Assembly (NCBI GenBank): GCA_030690945.1
Contig: JAUYFM010000011.1
Coordinates: 1 to 56,101 of the forward strand
Source of the DNA: Smithellaceae bacterium
GTDB lineage: Bacteria > Desulfobacterota > Syntrophia > Syntrophales > Smithellaceae
Direction: 5' to 3'
DNA length: 56,101 nt
Shown: one piece after another, positions 4,459 through 13,447 of the stretch
Numbering within the stretch: the stretch's first letter is position 1
Layout of the letters: each line of letters opens with the position of its first letter
Program-made: the position numbers and the translations under genes
The notes under the pieces: model-generated
Databases searched by the model: none
Told to the model about the DNA's origin: nothing
What the model saw: the letters and a program-made list of their open reading frames with translations, nothing else

Positions 4459-6123
4459 TCAGGATTCCTTAGTGAATTCTCGGATGATCCGTTCGATATC
4501 CTCAAGATGCCGGCGCGCAGGGTGAGCCGAATTGTCGGGCTTCAGCGGCAGGGCGCCTACACCTTGATAACGTCCCGCTGCATTGTGCGCGGGATAAACC
4601 TTCGCCGCCTCTCCCGGATAGAGAATATAGGCACCGGAGACATTACGTATCGCCTCCCGGTAGGTATGCATCTTGTCGATATCTTCATCCTTCCAGGTAC
4701 CGATAGTTCCTTCCTCACCCTCGCCATAGAAACCGCCCCGCTGGCCTTTGAATTTGGCATCGAATATGAGTATGTTGTTGCCTCTCGAAATGATGATATC
4801 TGGTCGCAGGTTATGGGAGTAGCTTTCATTCGGGACAGTATTACCCGGATTTTCGAAAGGCATGAACCCGGGAGACCCGGGAGAGGTTCTATTGAACCAC
4901 AGGGAAATTCCGCCTTCATATTCGATGCAGATGCCCTGAATTATCTTTTGTTCAAGAGGATCGGTGGATACAACCGTCCTGCAGGACCGGATTTTGTTTA
5001 TTTTATCCAGAACATCCTTAACAACGAAAAAGGACCAGTATTCAAAAAGCGTCGGAGTATCTTTGGTTTCCAGAAGATTTTGAAAATCATCGTTATTGAA
5101 ATGGCAATGGGTGGCAAGCTGAAGCAAAGAATAAAGACGGAACAACTGGCGGTAGCCGTCGCGACGCTGCAAGACCTGCGACCCGGTCGGAATGAAGCGC
5201 ATGGTTCCCACATCGGACCAGAAGGGATCGGATAAAAAAAGCATAAGTCCCCTGTCCATTTTTTCCAGAGATGCTTCAATATCGGGATTGAGATAGCCAC
5301 CGCTTTTTCCCTTCAGGGCTTTCGCCAGACCTTGCAGACGGCGCTGAACCGATTGCAGAAAATGCTTCAGGAAACGGTTTTCATTCGTGTCCACCGTGTG
5401 ATGCTTACGTTCCTCCATGGCCTCGGAGGGAAACAAACACCGTCCGGTTCTGTTAAAGATGGCCCGTCCGCAGGCCGTTGACACCAGGGGATGATCGGGC
5501 TTTAGTACGGCGAAGCGATCGGGTGAACTGAACAGGTTGACCAACATTGCTGGTGGTATATGCGTCACCTGATCTATGGTGTTGTGTCGATATTCCCGGA
5601 ATAGTCTGCGATGGGGATTGGCCAGGATCAGAGCGGAAATGCCCTCCAGATTCGGAGATCCGTCCAAAAGGTATTTTTTGAGAAAAAGATATTCCACGTA
5701 GGCGATATCCTTCCCCGGCCTATCCTTACAGTATTGCTGTCCAAGCGGGTTAGAAAAGCTGAAAACTAGGTTAGCGTATTTCCCGGCGACATAATCCAGC
5801 ATCGCTTCGTAAACTGGGTCCGTGATTTTTCTGCTGACGACGCGGGCGGGGACTGGACCGATGCGTGTCCTTCCGACGGCGTTGCGAAAACTCACTTCAA
5901 AAAGCCGATCAGGAAATTCTCGTCGATTGTAGTAATTCCCCGTATCCGGAAAGAACGGAGGAACGTCTTCTCCGTAAAATTTGACAAAATAGGTCTGCCA
6001 TTCCTGTAAAGTAATTGGCGTACCATCATGGTTTATTGACAATAACGACGCCTCGTCTGTCGAAAACATCGGGCTATCGGCTATAGCCATGCGGAGTTCT
6101 GATGAATAAAGGATAATTGCCAT
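4459..6123 (-). CDS. DUF2357 / McrC-like PD-(D/E)XK nuclease
   Basis: This 554-residue protein has a C-terminal nuclease core: LFEYWSFFVVKDVL, then RPDIIISRGNNILIFDAKFK, the D…DAK pattern of PD-(D/E)XK enzymes. The N-terminal 300 residues resemble DUF2357, the domain usually found in McrC-like partners of McrB-type AAA+ proteins. It lies 1 nt downstream of the McrB-like gene, as expected for a motor-nuclease pair. In known McrBC systems the AAA+ ring loads on modified DNA and McrC cuts it. Here no separate DNA-recognition domain is obvious in the McrB-like partner, so the target is open. The family call is fairly sure and the substrate is not known. Confidence 0.75.
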   Translation of the reverse strand: MAIILYSSELRMAIADSPMFSTDEASLLSINHDGTPITLQEWQTYFVKFYGEDVPPFFPDTGNYYNRREFPDRLFEVSFRNAVGRTRIGPVPARVVSRKITDPVYEAMLDYVAGKYANLVFSFSNPLGQQYCKDRPGKDIAYVEYLFLKKYLLDGSPNLEGISALILANPHRRLFREYRHNTIDQVTHIPPAMLVNLFSSPDRFAVLKPDHPLVSTACGRAIFNRTGRCLFPSEAMEERKHHTVDTNENRFLKHFLQSVQRRLQGLAKALKGKSGGYLNPDIEASLEKMDRGLMLFLSDPFWSDVGTMRFIPTGSQVLQRRDGYRQLFRLYSLLQLATHCHFNNDDFQNLLETKDTPTLFEYWSFFVVKDVLDKINKIRSCRTVVSTDPLEQKIIQGICIEYEGGISLWFNRTSPGSPGFMPFENPGNTVPNESYSHNLRPDIIISRGNNILIFDAKFKGQRGGFYGEGEEGTIGTWKDEDIDKMHTYREAIRNVSGAYILYPGEAAKVYPAHNAAGRYQGVGALPLKPDNSAHPARRHLEDIERIIREFTKES

Positions 6124-6124
6124 A

Positions 6125-7318
6125 TTACTCGATAAAGCTCGTATAGCCTTGTATTTTCAAGTTTCGGATCATCCTGGCCAGTTTTTTTGCCGATCTGGGA
6201 AACGGGGCGTCTTCCGGTATCTCTTCAGACTCCGGGAGCGGAGATTCATAGTTATCTGTATCTACCCCACTACAAAAGGTGAAAAGTTTTCCCAGTGGTT
6301 CTTCTAGTTTTGCCTGTGTGCCGTGAAACTTGGGAAGAATCTTCTGGAGAATCTGGATATCCAGTGTCTCTTCGAGTTTGAAATCCTGAACCATTTCGCT
6401 GGCAAGAAGAATAAACCGGGCAATTTCATTGACGACGCGATAGCCGAAGTGGAGATGATGGGGATGAAGAATCTCCAGAATTCTTGAAAGAAGTTCGCCT
6501 GTATTGCGGTTCATTTCCTGGGCTCTGGTGTAATCGGTCTTGTTGCAGAAAGGCGTTTCACCCGGCTGCGGCAGCAGTTTTTCTCTGACATCCTGTGCCT
6601 TCAGGATACATCCATCAGCGGAAGCAACTCCTCTTTCGTAGTTAGCCAAATCCACATCGTTGAACTCGATGACATTCGCCCTATCCAGCACCTTCGGACT
6701 AAACATGTAGGTGGACTCATCCACATTAACGGTTCCGGTAAAATAAACATTCGGCGGGATCGTGATCTGTTGTGGAATAACTCGACCATCGGGGGTTTCT
6801 GCCTTTATGGCGGAATGCAGATAAAGCGGTTCACCGGAAAGATTTCCGGCAGTCCGGCTCTCCATAATGCTCAGAAAATCGGAAAAATACTGTTCCACTT
6901 TGGCCAGATTCATTTCATCGAGAATAATGAAATACGGTTTGTCCTGATGCTCTGACGCCTCAATCAGAATTTGCAGGACCGGTGTGGCATGATATTTTTC
7001 ATCAAGGAGATTGTAATATCCCAAGAGCCCCTTGTTGTCCATCCAGTCGGGACGTACCGGCACAAACGCAATGCGCTTTGCCATTTCCTCCAGGGTTAAG
7101 CCCTGGCACATGTATTCCGCGAAGACCTGGGCGATCTTCGTCTTCCCCGTCCCGGAAATTCCTGTCAGGATGACAAAGGGCTTGGTCTTCAGGGACAGGA
7201 AGTAACGGGTCAGGACTTCACGAGGGAAGAAATAACCTTCTTCTTCGAAATAGTCATAGATATATTCCATAGAACTCTCCATTCTTAAACCTTTCTCTTC
7301 GTGCCATTGAGGTTTCAT
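6125..7318 (-). CDS. McrB-like AAA+ NTPase
   Basis: This 397-residue AAA+ motor carries Walker A GISGTGKTK (residues 53-61), VRPDWMDNKGLLGYYN typical of McrB-like domains, Walker B FIILDEMNLAKVEQYFSDF and sensor region TGTVNVDESTYMFSPKVLDR. McrB proper uses an NxxD signature for GTP. Here the matching stretch is NVDE, so the nucleotide preference is uncertain. The N-terminus is only about 45 residues before the AAA+ domain, too short for the DNA-binding domain of E. coli McrB. An alternative start at 7282 has an AAGG about 8 nt upstream. It pairs with the DUF2357 nuclease just downstream. Confidence 0.85.
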   Translation of the reverse strand: MKPQWHEEKGLRMESSMEYIYDYFEEEGYFFPREVLTRYFLSLKTKPFVILTGISGTGKTKIAQVFAEYMCQGLTLEEMAKRIAFVPVRPDWMDNKGLLGYYNLLDEKYHATPVLQILIEASEHQDKPYFIILDEMNLAKVEQYFSDFLSIMESRTAGNLSGEPLYLHSAIKAETPDGRVIPQQITIPPNVYFTGTVNVDESTYMFSPKVLDRANVIEFNDVDLANYERGVASADGCILKAQDVREKLLPQPGETPFCNKTDYTRAQEMNRNTGELLSRILEILHPHHLHFGYRVVNEIARFILLASEMVQDFKLEETLDIQILQKILPKFHGTQAKLEEPLGKLFTFCSGVDTDNYESPLPESEEIPEDAPFPRSAKKLARMIRNLKIQGYTSFIE

Positions 7319-10616: not shown

Positions 10617-11210
10617 TTACCTGAAATGAACCGCATCAATTCGTTTTAATTCTTCCAAAACTTCACAAAGCGGCAAACCGATGACATTGGTGTAGGAGCC
10701 GCGGATCGCCTTGATGAAATACGCGCCCATCCCCTGCGCGGCATACCCGCCGGCCTTGTCGTAAGGCTCATCGCAGTTGACATACCAGTCCACTTCCTCG
10801 GGACTGATTTTTTTAAATTGCACGGCTGATCGGACAACTTTTGTTTTTGATATCCCGGAACCGGCTGAAACAATTGTAAAGCCGGTGAAGACGGTATGCT
10901 GGCGGTTGCTTAATCGCTCCAGCATTGCCCGCGCCTGGCTTTTGTTTCTGGGTTTGCCCAAAATCAGGCCGTCGATCACAACGATCGTATCCGCGCCCAG
11001 CACCAGGGCTTTCGGATGTTGATCGGCGATGACCGTCGCTTTGTCACTCGAAAGCCTTCGGACGTGAGTTTGCGGGCTTTCGCCGTTGATATGTGTTTCG
11101 TCAACATGAGCCGGAATAATTTTCAACTTTAATCCCACGGAACGTAAAAGTTCTTTGCGGCGCGGCGAGGCAGAAGCTAAAATAAAGGGGGACGATAAGG
11201 CAATAGTCAT
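10617..11210 (-). CDS. maf: Maf-family nucleoside triphosphate pyrophosphatase
   Basis: A 197-residue house-cleaning enzyme that hydrolyses non-canonical or surplus nucleoside triphosphates to monophosphates. Motifs: SASPRRKELL (residues 14-23), the catalytic-base region VLGADTIVVIDG, the KPRNKSQARAML segment, and YDKAGGYAAQGMGAYFI near residues 149-165. The length matches the family. It is upstream of yggS in the same operon. Whether it is the dTTP/UTP or the other subtype is not decided from the sequence. Confidence 0.93.
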   Translation of the reverse strand: MTIALSSPFILASASPRRKELLRSVGLKLKIIPAHVDETHINGESPQTHVRRLSSDKATVIADQHPKALVLGADTIVVIDGLILGKPRNKSQARAMLERLSNRQHTVFTGFTIVSAGSGISKTKVVRSAVQFKKISPEEVDWYVNCDEPYDKAGGYAAQGMGAYFIKAIRGSYTNVIGLPLCEVLEELKRIDAVHFR

Positions 11211-11352
11211 AATTTTTTCTTTCTCTTTTTGTTGAGGTTTTTATTCCAGATAAAAGATACCCTGTCAATTGTAAATTGCCGTTGCAACTTATGGCGACTT
11301 GGCGTAATTAAAAACGAATAGCGACGAGACAATGGTTCCAAGTGGAGAGATT

Positions 11353-11676
11353 ATGAAAAAAATATCGAGTATCTTCCTGGTGTTTATTTTTCTGGTGTTT
11401 TTGGCCGGTGGCGTCCAGGCGGCGGAAAGTGTCGTGCAATTGACCGTGCCCGGGTGCTTTTCCTGAGGGGCAAGCAAGAGGATAGGTTCTATCCTGAACA
11501 AAATCGAAGGTGTCAGAAAACATCAAACCAGACAGCCGAACATTCTGATTATCGCTTTTGATGATGAACGAACGAGCCTTGACGTCATCATTAAAGCGTT
11601 AGAAGAAGGGACTTTTCCTGTGAAGGGCAAGCCGGTATATCTGAAAGTCTTTCCGGTTGAAGATCAGAGAAGCTGA
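11353..11676 (+). CDS. MerP/HMA-like thioredox selenoprotein with CxxU motif (UGA read as selenocysteine)
   Basis: A single frame runs from ATG 11353 (GGAGAG upstream) to TGA 11674, interrupted only by an in-frame TGA at codon 38. Translating that codon as Sec gives 107 residues: a signal peptide or membrane anchor (MKKISSIFLVFIFLVFLAGG…), then VVQLTVPGCFSUGASKRI. The Sec falls in C-F-S-U, just where heavy-metal-associated (MerP-like) domains carry CxxC. The part after the UGA stays protein-like and in frame (IGSILNKIEGV…, FDDERTSLDVIIKALEEG), as in HMA proteins. A hairpin with a loop G lies 12 nt beyond the UGA. The frame ends inside the convergent manC-like gene by 13 nt. I infer a periplasmic or membrane-anchored selenoprotein. 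A plain nonsense mutation is less likely because the downstream half is intact. Confidence 0.8.
11464..11495 (+). promoter_or_regulatory. Bacterial SECIS-like element
   Basis: The UGA at 11464-11466 is followed after 12 nt by a perfect 7-bp stem, AGGATAG / CTATCCT, closing a GTT loop. Bacterial SECIS elements lie just downstream of the Sec codon, with the apical loop roughly 16-37 nt away and a G among the first loop bases. Here the loop begins 19 nt after the UGA with a G. No folding program was run. Confidence 0.7.
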
Positions 11677-12740
11677 GTTTGTCCGAGGGCTTCCAGCGCG
11701 TCCACGATTTTCTTGACGTCCTGAGATTGTCCTCTCTTGCAGACCAGAAGTGCGTCTTTCGTTTCGACCACGATGACGTCTTTCATGCCCACCAACGCCA
11801 CCAGTTTGCCCGGACTGTAAACCAGGGAGCCTTCCGTGTCTTCAAATAAGACCATGCCGCTTCCGGTTCGCGCGTTCTTCTTTTTGTCTTTATCCGAGAT
11901 ATCCCAAAGCGCATCCCAACTGCCCACATCGCTCCAGCCGAAATCGGCCGGAATGACGAAAACGTTTTTAGACTTTTCCATCACGCCATAATCGATGGAG
12001 ATAGATTTCTGCCGCAGATAAACCCTGGATACGGTTTTGGCTTCGGAATCCGTACCCAGCGAATCTTTGATCGTCATCAAACCTGAATACAGATCCGGCA
12101 AATATTGTTCGATTTCCCGCAGAATGGTTGACGCCTTCCAGACAAACATGCCGCTGTTCCAGTAAAATCTACCGCTTTTGACGAATTTGCGGGCCAGAGC
12201 AAGATCCGGCTTTTCCCGGATTGACTTTACGCGCAGCACCTCATCGCCTCCAATGCTTCCGACCGCTTTGCCCCCTTCGAGATAGCCGAAGCCGGTGTGC
12301 GGTCCAGTGGGTTGAATGCCGATGGTGACCAGAGCGTCTTCGCTTTCGGCCGCCCGGGCCGCCGTGGCGATCACAGATCGATATTTATCAGGGTTGCCGA
12401 TTGCGTGATCGGAAGGCAGCACGACCATGATATCATCTTTCATTTTCTTTTGAATATGCAGCGCTGCCAGGCCGATGCAGGCGGCTGTATTGCGGCCGAC
12501 GGGTTCAATGATGATATTTTTCACGGGGATTTCCGGCAGTTGTTTCATCAGTTCACGCGCATGTTTTCTACCCGTGACGATCAGAATATTTTTGGGTTTG
12601 ATCAGCTCTCTGATGCGGTCAACCGTCTCTTGAATAATAGTCCGATCGCTGACAATATCCAGCAGGTGTTTTGGTTTTTTCTCCCGACTCCTGGGCCAGA
12701 ATCTTGTGCCACGTCCGCCGGCCATGATGACTGCATGCAT
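11664..12740 (-). CDS. Mannose-1-phosphate guanylyltransferase
   Basis: A 358-residue nucleotidyltransferase that makes GDP-mannose from mannose-1-phosphate and GTP for surface polysaccharide. Signature: MAGGRGTRFWPRSREKKPKH at residues 7-26, then IIEPVGRNTAACIGLAA, VLPSDHAI, GFGYLEGG, IREKPD and FGWSDVGSWDAL. This is the short form without the C-terminal cupin phosphomannose isomerase domain. It overlaps the selenoprotein gene tail-to-tail by 13 nt. No sugar-pathway partners are adjacent. Confidence 0.92.
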   Translation of the reverse strand: MHAVIMAGGRGTRFWPRSREKKPKHLLDIVSDRTIIQETVDRIRELIKPKNILIVTGRKHARELMKQLPEIPVKNIIIEPVGRNTAACIGLAALHIQKKMKDDIMVVLPSDHAIGNPDKYRSVIATAARAAESEDALVTIGIQPTGPHTGFGYLEGGKAVGSIGGDEVLRVKSIREKPDLALARKFVKSGRFYWNSGMFVWKASTILREIEQYLPDLYSGLMTIKDSLGTDSEAKTVSRVYLRQKSISIDYGVMEKSKNVFVIPADFGWSDVGSWDALWDISDKDKKKNARTGSGMVLFEDTEGSLVYSPGKLVALVGMKDVIVVETKDALLVCKRGQSQDVKKIVDALEALGQTQLL

Positions 12741-12810: not shown

Positions 12811-13152
12811 TTATTTATAGACAGAGAGCAGTTTCGTCAGTTGTCCGATCAGAACGGGAAGATCCTGTTTGACGGTGCTTTCAACAAGAGCATAGTCAAT
12901 ATCGAAATAGGCGTGAATAATTCTGTTACGCATGCCGATAATTTGTGCCCAAGGCAATTCGGGATTATTCTCCTTGTATTCTTTGGATAATTGAGATGCG
13001 GCTTCACCGACTATTTCGATTGATCGGACAATAGCCTGTGAGACAAGGCGATTATGCTCAAGAGTGCCATGTTTTAGTGTGTCAAGAAAGGAAACAGCTT
13101 CCTGTGCGGCGTCCAGCATATGCTGCAGGCGCATTTTATCATTGAACTTCAT
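12811..13152 (-). CDS. HepT-type ribonuclease toxin (DUF86)
   Basis: A 113-residue helical protein with the HepT signature [12 protein letters not shown] (residues 84-95), matching the RX4-6HXY active motif. HepT toxins cleave tRNA or other RNA ends and are silenced by AMPylation of the tyrosine by MntA. The MntA partner lies upstream, overlapping by 14 nt, so the pair is translationally coupled. The length is normal for the family. Confidence 0.9.
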
Positions 13153-13447
13153 ATTTTACCTCGGCCAGTCGGAGAACCTCCTCACGGAAATATCTGCTCA
13201 AGTCTCCGGGGGTGCGCAGGTCCACTTTTCTGCCCAGCTTGTCGGTTAATTCAATCTCCAGCCCGGCCAGAGTGATTAACCCGGGGACATGATCTTCTTC
13301 AAATTCCACAAGGAGATCTATGTCGCTGTCAGATCGCAACTCGCCTTTGAGCGCCGAACCGAATAGGGCCAGCCTTTTAATATGATTGCGACGGCAAAAT
13401 GCCGCAATTTCTTTTTTTGAAATATGTTGTTCCATTTGAAATTTCAT
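13139..13447 (-). CDS. MntA-type antitoxin nucleotidyltransferase
   Basis: A 102-residue minimal nucleotidyltransferase with the motif [20 protein letters not shown] (residues 30-49), i.e. GSx10DxD. MntA antitoxins transfer AMP onto the HepT toxin. It is the first gene of the pair and overlaps hepT. An ATG 12 nt further in is possible, but the first one has the better upstream sequence (CAGGATTGTAA). A second MntA-like gene without a HepT lies at 40736. Confidence 0.9.

Follow-up and report, generated by a model that had tools for sequence, protein, structure and literature searches.

A predicted secreted selenoprotein family pairing Cys and Sec on an HMA-type fold in the Syntrophales

In the window analysed here, the whole 56,101-nucleotide stretch of contig JAUYFM010000011.1 from a Smithellaceae bacterium, a gene bearing an in-frame stop very probably reads its UGA as selenocysteine (Sec) and thereby makes a small secreted protein. 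Its structural relatives classically carry metals, whereas this protein probably takes part in thiol redox chemistry instead. In the proposed mechanism, a 107-residue selenoprotein would be secreted to the periplasm, with Sec inserted at residue 38 by SelB and a hairpin after the UGA. The mature protein would consist of one HMA-type domain without the usual GMxCxxC metal motif, and the loop joining strand 1 to helix 1, where that motif would lie, holds one Cys and one Sec (GCxxU) in its stead. As in CxxU redox selenoproteins, Cys35 and Sec38 would form a reversible selenenylsulfide and pass electrons to or from periplasmic thiols and disulfides or some small oxidised compound. We infer the redox role, its substrate and partner, the secretion and the Cys35–Sec38 pair. 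Taking Sec insertion and the redox mechanism together, a periplasmic Cys–Sec redox protein on an HMA scaffold is moderately likely. The features on which the analysis rests are as follows.

10617–11210, minus strand: maf-like gene, divergent neighbour (ORF; named by sequence recognition).
11344–11349, plus strand: Shine-Dalgarno-like GGAGAG (from sequence reading).
11353–11676, plus strand: predicted selenoprotein gene, 107 residues with Sec at 38, translated with the TGA read; ATG at 11353, terminal stop TGA at 11674–11676.
11353–11421, plus strand: probable signal peptide (MKK, hydrophobic core, VQA before AES), recognised by eye; in the structural model a helix at residues 3–18 precedes the first strand.
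11425–11646, plus strand: ferredoxin-like beta-alpha-beta-beta-alpha-beta (HMA-type) domain, residues 25–98, from AlphaFold2, Foldseek and VIA-align.
11455–11466, plus strand: C-F-S-U motif (Cys35, Sec38), with the Sec codon UGA at 11464–11466.
11479–11495, plus strand: bSECIS-type hairpin of 7 bp, stem 11479–11485 with 11489–11495, loop GUU at 11486–11488.
11664–12740, minus strand: manC-like (mannose-1-phosphate guanylyltransferase-like) gene, convergent, overlapping the end of the selenoprotein gene by 13 nt (ORF; named by sequence recognition).

The frame 11353–11676 is interrupted only by the UGA at 11464–11466, within GCFSU, and 69 codons follow it. The hairpin reads AGGAUAG-GUU-CUAUCCU with G as the first loop base, 12 nt from the UGA to the stem and 19 nt to the loop. 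A first-pass annotation of this DNA had described the same frame, UGA and hairpin, and its coordinates proved exact when the window sequence was read again. It had also placed the protein at the cell surface; secretion agrees with the signal peptide recognised by eye, and the location is better read as the periplasm. Taken alone, the hairpin of the window gene is modestly unusual and not strong evidence. The 50-nt fold after the UGA gave a z of −0.33, with 69 of 200 shuffles as good, and the 21-nt hairpin alone gave −1.89, with 8 of 200 as good. Using our own score for G-in-loop hairpins, with the 2160 TGAs of the window on both strands as background, a score at least that of the window gene was reached by 54 of the 2160 at any spacing of 13–37 and by 12 at spacing 18–21. 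Because the 50-nt fold was no better than shuffles, hairpin energy was dropped as proof of Sec. A search of the window at Rfam gathering cut-offs gave no match near 11.4 kb.

To place the gene among its relatives, we read the aligned codon throughout the order. The homology search found a homologue in 50 of the 51 genomes of the Smithellaceae and in 104 of the 155 genomes of the Syntrophales (117 places), and all but two of the 104 (G141 and G148), that is 102, hold the TGA form. The class consists of the same 155 genomes; profile A1 matches 107 of them at 1e-5, some of these matches being HMA domains of long proteins. All 117 places were read in two batches, and TGA stands at the aligned codon in 83 of 90 and 27 of 27, or 110 in total, comprising 94 CxxU, 15 CxU and one YxxU (L098), where one gene may be counted twice as two partial places at contig ends in G040. 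The seven places without TGA are two with CxxC (L080, L088), two with CxC (L110, L111), one with neither (L108), L109, and L112, which is a weak match (18.5 bits). The genomes of the four Cys homologues also carry Sec copies. The first-pass annotation had let its reading depend on Cys or Sec at this position in relatives, and the 110 TGA and four Cys places bear it out. As a separate observation, the frame of L109 (G148:C83) is lost before the Sec site, through a frameshift either in the gene or in the assembly.

The hairpin, in turn, accompanies the TGA across the order. At every one of the 110 TGA places, a G-in-loop hairpin scoring at least 12.5 follows at spacing 18–22, compared with 57 of the 2160 window TGAs, and 86 of the 110 (68/83 and 18/27) reach 17, which is at least the score of the window gene. 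Among 77 aligned sequences, 96.5% of stem cells are paired, against 93.8% with shuffled letters and 35–47% in slid controls (maximum 46.9%). For five of the seven stem pairs, at least one sequence has both partners changed; there are 16 such cells, versus 2.2 in shuffles. Four of five covariation measures beat all 500 shuffles, and the fifth, further pair types, was reached by 16 of them. The outermost stem pair hardly varies and the innermost is open in 16 of 77 sequences, and both are weaker evidence. Additionally, codon usage in the hairpin is uneven, as 74 of the 77 sequences encode the Arg by AGG and 56 of them all have ATA as the codon after it. The four Cys homologues have weak hairpins (score 6–8). 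In CxU members the UGA lies one codon earlier, and the hairpin still lies over the same codons as in CxxU members.

These data bear on two readings in which Sec is not inserted. If the UGA were a plain stop, the product would be a peptide of 37 residues, or else the gene would be a pseudogene or the result of a sequencing error; the unremarkable hairpin energy would suit this, as would the three closest pairs (L018, L019 and L020), which hold too few changes after the UGA, with few or no synonymous ones (L019 has 0 synonymous and 8 non-synonymous). Against it stand the conserved TGA, the frame kept beyond it and the covarying hairpin, and we judge a plain stop very improbable. In five further pairs (L021, L022, L024, L026 and L027), dN after the UGA is below dS (0.15–0.26 against a dS of 1.2–2.5, which is near saturation), in favour of Sec insertion. 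Reassignment of UGA in this lineage to another amino acid, such as Trp, is close to negligible: our analysis found no support for it, the substitutes at the site are Cys and not Trp, SelB is present in the genome, and TGA also serves as a true end codon in the same family, in 29 of 83 proteins. Among 32 proteins of 98 residues, the end codon is TGA in three and, at the same place, TAA or TAG in the remaining 29. Collectively, because the UGA and the hairpin are conserved across the order, we regard the Sec reading as settled; the UGA-bearing gene is, as judged from sequence, a real selenoprotein family, and the CxxU selenoprotein with a bacterial SECIS proposed in the first-pass annotation is backed by the conserved TGA and the covarying hairpin.

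The machinery for Sec insertion is present in the genome that contains the window (3.15 Mb in 69 contigs, listed as 100% complete and 2.98% contaminated). The four components that the first-pass annotation had proposed to look for, SelB and tRNA-Sec being those on which its reading depended, are all found over curated cut-offs: tRNA-Sec at 73.5 bits (cut-off 47), called tRNA-SeC with anticodon tca by ARAGORN; SelB at 362 bits (242); SelA at 610 bits (268); and SelD at 372 bits (125). The selD gene (G000:C8:50037-50963, L051) has one in-frame TGA of its own, so SelD is probably a selenoprotein too. Weak tRNA-Sec matches are unspecific, since 14 of 14 control genomes match and five of these lie over the cut-off; a second place in the genome itself scores 47.4 bits, barely over the cut-off. 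Across the order, SelB was found in 141 of 155 genomes and in 91 of the 92 most complete. With SelB this widespread, its co-occurrence with the family is a test of low power. SelB was not matched in the remaining 14 genomes, and the TGA gene is present in nine of these (G009, G035, G036, G042, G069, G105, G122, G136 and G152); all nine are drafts with a listed completeness of 67–92%, and they count against the Sec reading unless SelB sits in the missing parts of these drafts. The sole near-complete genome without SelB (G145, 97%) has no homologue at 1e-5. Judged from conservation and machinery, SelB and the hairpin almost certainly insert Sec at residue 38.

The fold of the protein was then compared with known structures and sequence models. 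The AlphaFold2 model, built from 55 sequences, has a mean pLDDT of 84.9 and the order beta-alpha-beta-beta-alpha-beta. The best Foldseek match is oxidised MerP, 1osd (E 1.1e-4, TM 0.86 on the target). VIA-align, in which rows within 1 in Z are tied, gave Z 11.2 for 3dxs (rmsd 1.6, 73 aligned) and Z 10.3 for 1osd (rmsd 1.9, 71 aligned, model 24–95 against chain 1–72). In the PDB sequence search, copper ATPase domains came first (9.3e-17), with MerP 1afi at 2.6e-10, and the best NCBIfam match is MerP, TIGR02052 (E 1.3e-7). The Pfam scan of the window protein returned nothing at E<=1, the HMA model PF00403 included, and the protein lies under every Pfam and NCBIfam cut-off. Two relatives exceed the PF00403 cut-off of 24.8 bits, L089 with 39.0 and L105 with 26.7. 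Searching the genome of the window with PF00403 gave two matches on contig C20, neither of which is the selenoprotein gene. The MerP/HMA type suggested by the first-pass annotation is thus borne out as a fold by the model, Foldseek and VIA-align, and the distant sequence matches agree.

The position of Sec in this fold differs from that of the metal ligands of MerP. Similar to MerP (TIGR02052; 1osd, 1afi), the window protein would be a secreted single HMA-type domain, and the VPG...EGV spacing is identical. In contrast to MerP, it has Sec and no Cys at the metal positions, its genome gave no MerT match, and it scores 32.1 bits against the TIGR02052 cut-off of 92.55. The profile alignment to MerP is gapless from residue 24 across helix 1 and up to the next strand; its offset is 23, and the ends of the VIA-align range give the same value. 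In this alignment Cys35 faces MerP Met12 and Sec38 faces Ala15, between Cys14 and Cys17, and residues 37 and 40 of the window protein lie opposite the two metal cysteines, 14 and 17. The GMxCxxC metal motif of HMA domains is absent from the window protein, both metal positions being without Cys, and none of the 94 CxxU places (77 + 17) has Cys at either one. In CxU members Sec sits one residue earlier and faces MerP Cys14. The mature part contains one Cys and one Sec in 92 of the 94 CxxU places, and the other two have a second Cys. The first-pass annotation had taken Sec to replace the second metal-binding Cys; as the canonical metal pair is absent in the MerP alignment, this reading is unsupported. 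A local loop shift invisible to the alignment is possible.

In the main rival to the redox reading, the protein would work in the periplasm in the manner of MerP, binding or relaying soft metals (Hg, Cu or other), and its two ligands would be Cys and Sec. A Cys–Sec pair is expected from general chemistry to bind soft metals tightly. The closest models and folds are all those of metal binders, namely TIGR02052 MerP, 1osd and copper ATPase domains. Sec-containing metal proteins of the HMA fold have also been modelled. The first, NF041115, is by its name and description a UxxU metal-binding (seleno)protein, which resembles the window protein in having an HMA-like domain with Sec; unlike it, the window protein has one Sec and one Cys (CxxU, CFSU) and reaches only 14.9 bits against a cut-off of 95. 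The second, NF045683, a MerT/CopZ fusion-like heavy metal transport selenoprotein, is similar in its CopZ/MerP-like domain within a selenoprotein; the window protein differs in having no match at E<=1 and no MerT part, and L105, L111, L148 and L158 match weakly. Against a metal relay, the canonical Cys positions are empty throughout the CxxU places, and lone-Sec relatives, described below, offer just one chalcogen ligand close to the loop. Moreover, MerT (PF02411, E<=1e-5) is found in 2 of the 155 genomes of the order, with no match in the genome of the window. Because the order is nearly without MerT, a role in MerT-type mercury uptake is unlikely, and that specific reading is weakened by both the near absence of MerT and the empty metal positions. 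We prefer redox over metal relay, which we consider somewhat unlikely.

The genomic surroundings give limited guidance. A maf homologue is present in 60 of 90 loci and a manC homologue also in 60 of 90, within the fetched flanks; 50 loci have both, 10 manC only, 10 maf only and 20 neither. These counts refer to flanks of 1.5–2 kb, with some contigs ending early, and to neighbours grouped by similarity, most of which are unnamed. The maf/manC surroundings look like an inherited position and say little of function. Among the 90 loci we found no conserved operon partner, and no transporter or mer gene was recognised as a regular neighbour, most neighbour groups being unnamed; the latter result speaks against metal relay. 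Links to thiol–disulfide chemistry occur in a few cases. In L078, a DsbC-like gene (1142–1927) lies 37 nt upstream on the same strand and has its own in-frame UGA at the first active-site position (TDPD-U-PYC). L089 has a dihydrolipoyl-dehydrogenase/MerA-like flavoprotein upstream, and so does L095, where it is in two frames. Furthermore, five loci (L105 and L156–L159) encode a fusion of the CxU form with a thioredoxin-like domain; this domain scores 24.8 bits for Thioredoxin_9, against a cut-off of 25, and in L158 the Cys of the WCxxS motif is lost. The redox reading accordingly draws on the single Cys and single Sec, the Cys-free metal positions, these few neighbours and fusions and the near absence of MerT. 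Counting against it, the usual neighbours maf and manC do not point to a redox link, the flavoprotein and DsbC links occur in one or two genomes each, and known HMA relatives bind metals.

Relatives that keep Sec without the Cys partner set a further limit on the proposed mechanism. A phylum sample, with at most 12 candidates scored per genome, gave matches at 1e-12 in 18 of 395 genomes; seven of these lie outside the order, six of them with TGA. Outside the order, L149 is CxU, L148 has U followed by C, and L153 is an ordinary GMTCxxC domain, while L150, L151, L152 and L154 have Sec and the hairpin and no Cys near Sec. Within the order, L098 has Tyr at the Cys-partner position. Because the Cys partner is lost in these five, a Cys–Sec pair is not the whole story, and the strongest argument against a simple pair comes from the lone-Sec relatives. 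They would fit a protein in which Sec itself binds or carries selenium, arsenic or organometal species, as a sensor, scavenger or store, with Cys optional; a review suggests Sec as a ligand in other families (PMC13188914). Such relatives are few, however, and 109 of the 110 Sec places of the order (94 CxxU, 15 CxU) have the Cys–Sec pair, which makes this reading improbable. On plasmids, tblastn matched 35 of 72,556 records, all from Pseudomonas and none covering 80% of the query; nine of the best 10 of these 35 matches carry the annotation merP, with 34.7% identity across 64%.

Two thirds of the searched genomes of the order hold the family, yet the window protein falls below all Pfam and NCBIfam cut-offs; a standard gene caller would presumably end the gene at 37 residues or miss it. 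A picture that we hold tentatively, as a possibility somewhat short of probable, is that of an order-wide, overlooked periplasmic selenoprotein family: an HMA metal-chaperone fold would have given up its metal site and turned into a Sec-dependent redox protein, with Sec moving by one residue (CxxU, CxU) or standing alone in relatives, and with the SECIS of CxxU and CxU members keeping its place over the same codons of the helix. If true, syntrophic anaerobes would have an extra periplasmic selenoprotein, and the HMA fold would be in use without its metal motif. Passages from PMC13188914, PMC9312934, PMC2398784, PMC1794560, PMC12013277 and PMC8318568 contain no match to a CxxU HMA family, yet a Sec-containing 'MerP' is already on record, as Table 2 of the GOS survey lists 'Mercuric transport protein MerP' with 2 Sec sequences, 0 Cys homologues and no motif (PMC2398784); going by its name, that protein may be akin to the present family. 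Table 1 of a 2026 review includes MerT-type and UxxU metal-binding selenoprotein families (PMC13188914), and a 2006 table gives 19 selenoproteins of Syntrophus aciditrophicus, none of the CxxU HMA kind (PMC1794560).

Elsewhere in the window, positions 1–804 carry the 3' end of a 23S rRNA gene and, after it, 5S rRNA (Rfam). Two ORFs on the minus strand at 4459–7318 resemble a McrBC-type restriction pair by eye, and two small adjacent ORFs on the minus strand at 12811–13447 resemble, also by eye, a HepT/MntA toxin–antitoxin pair.
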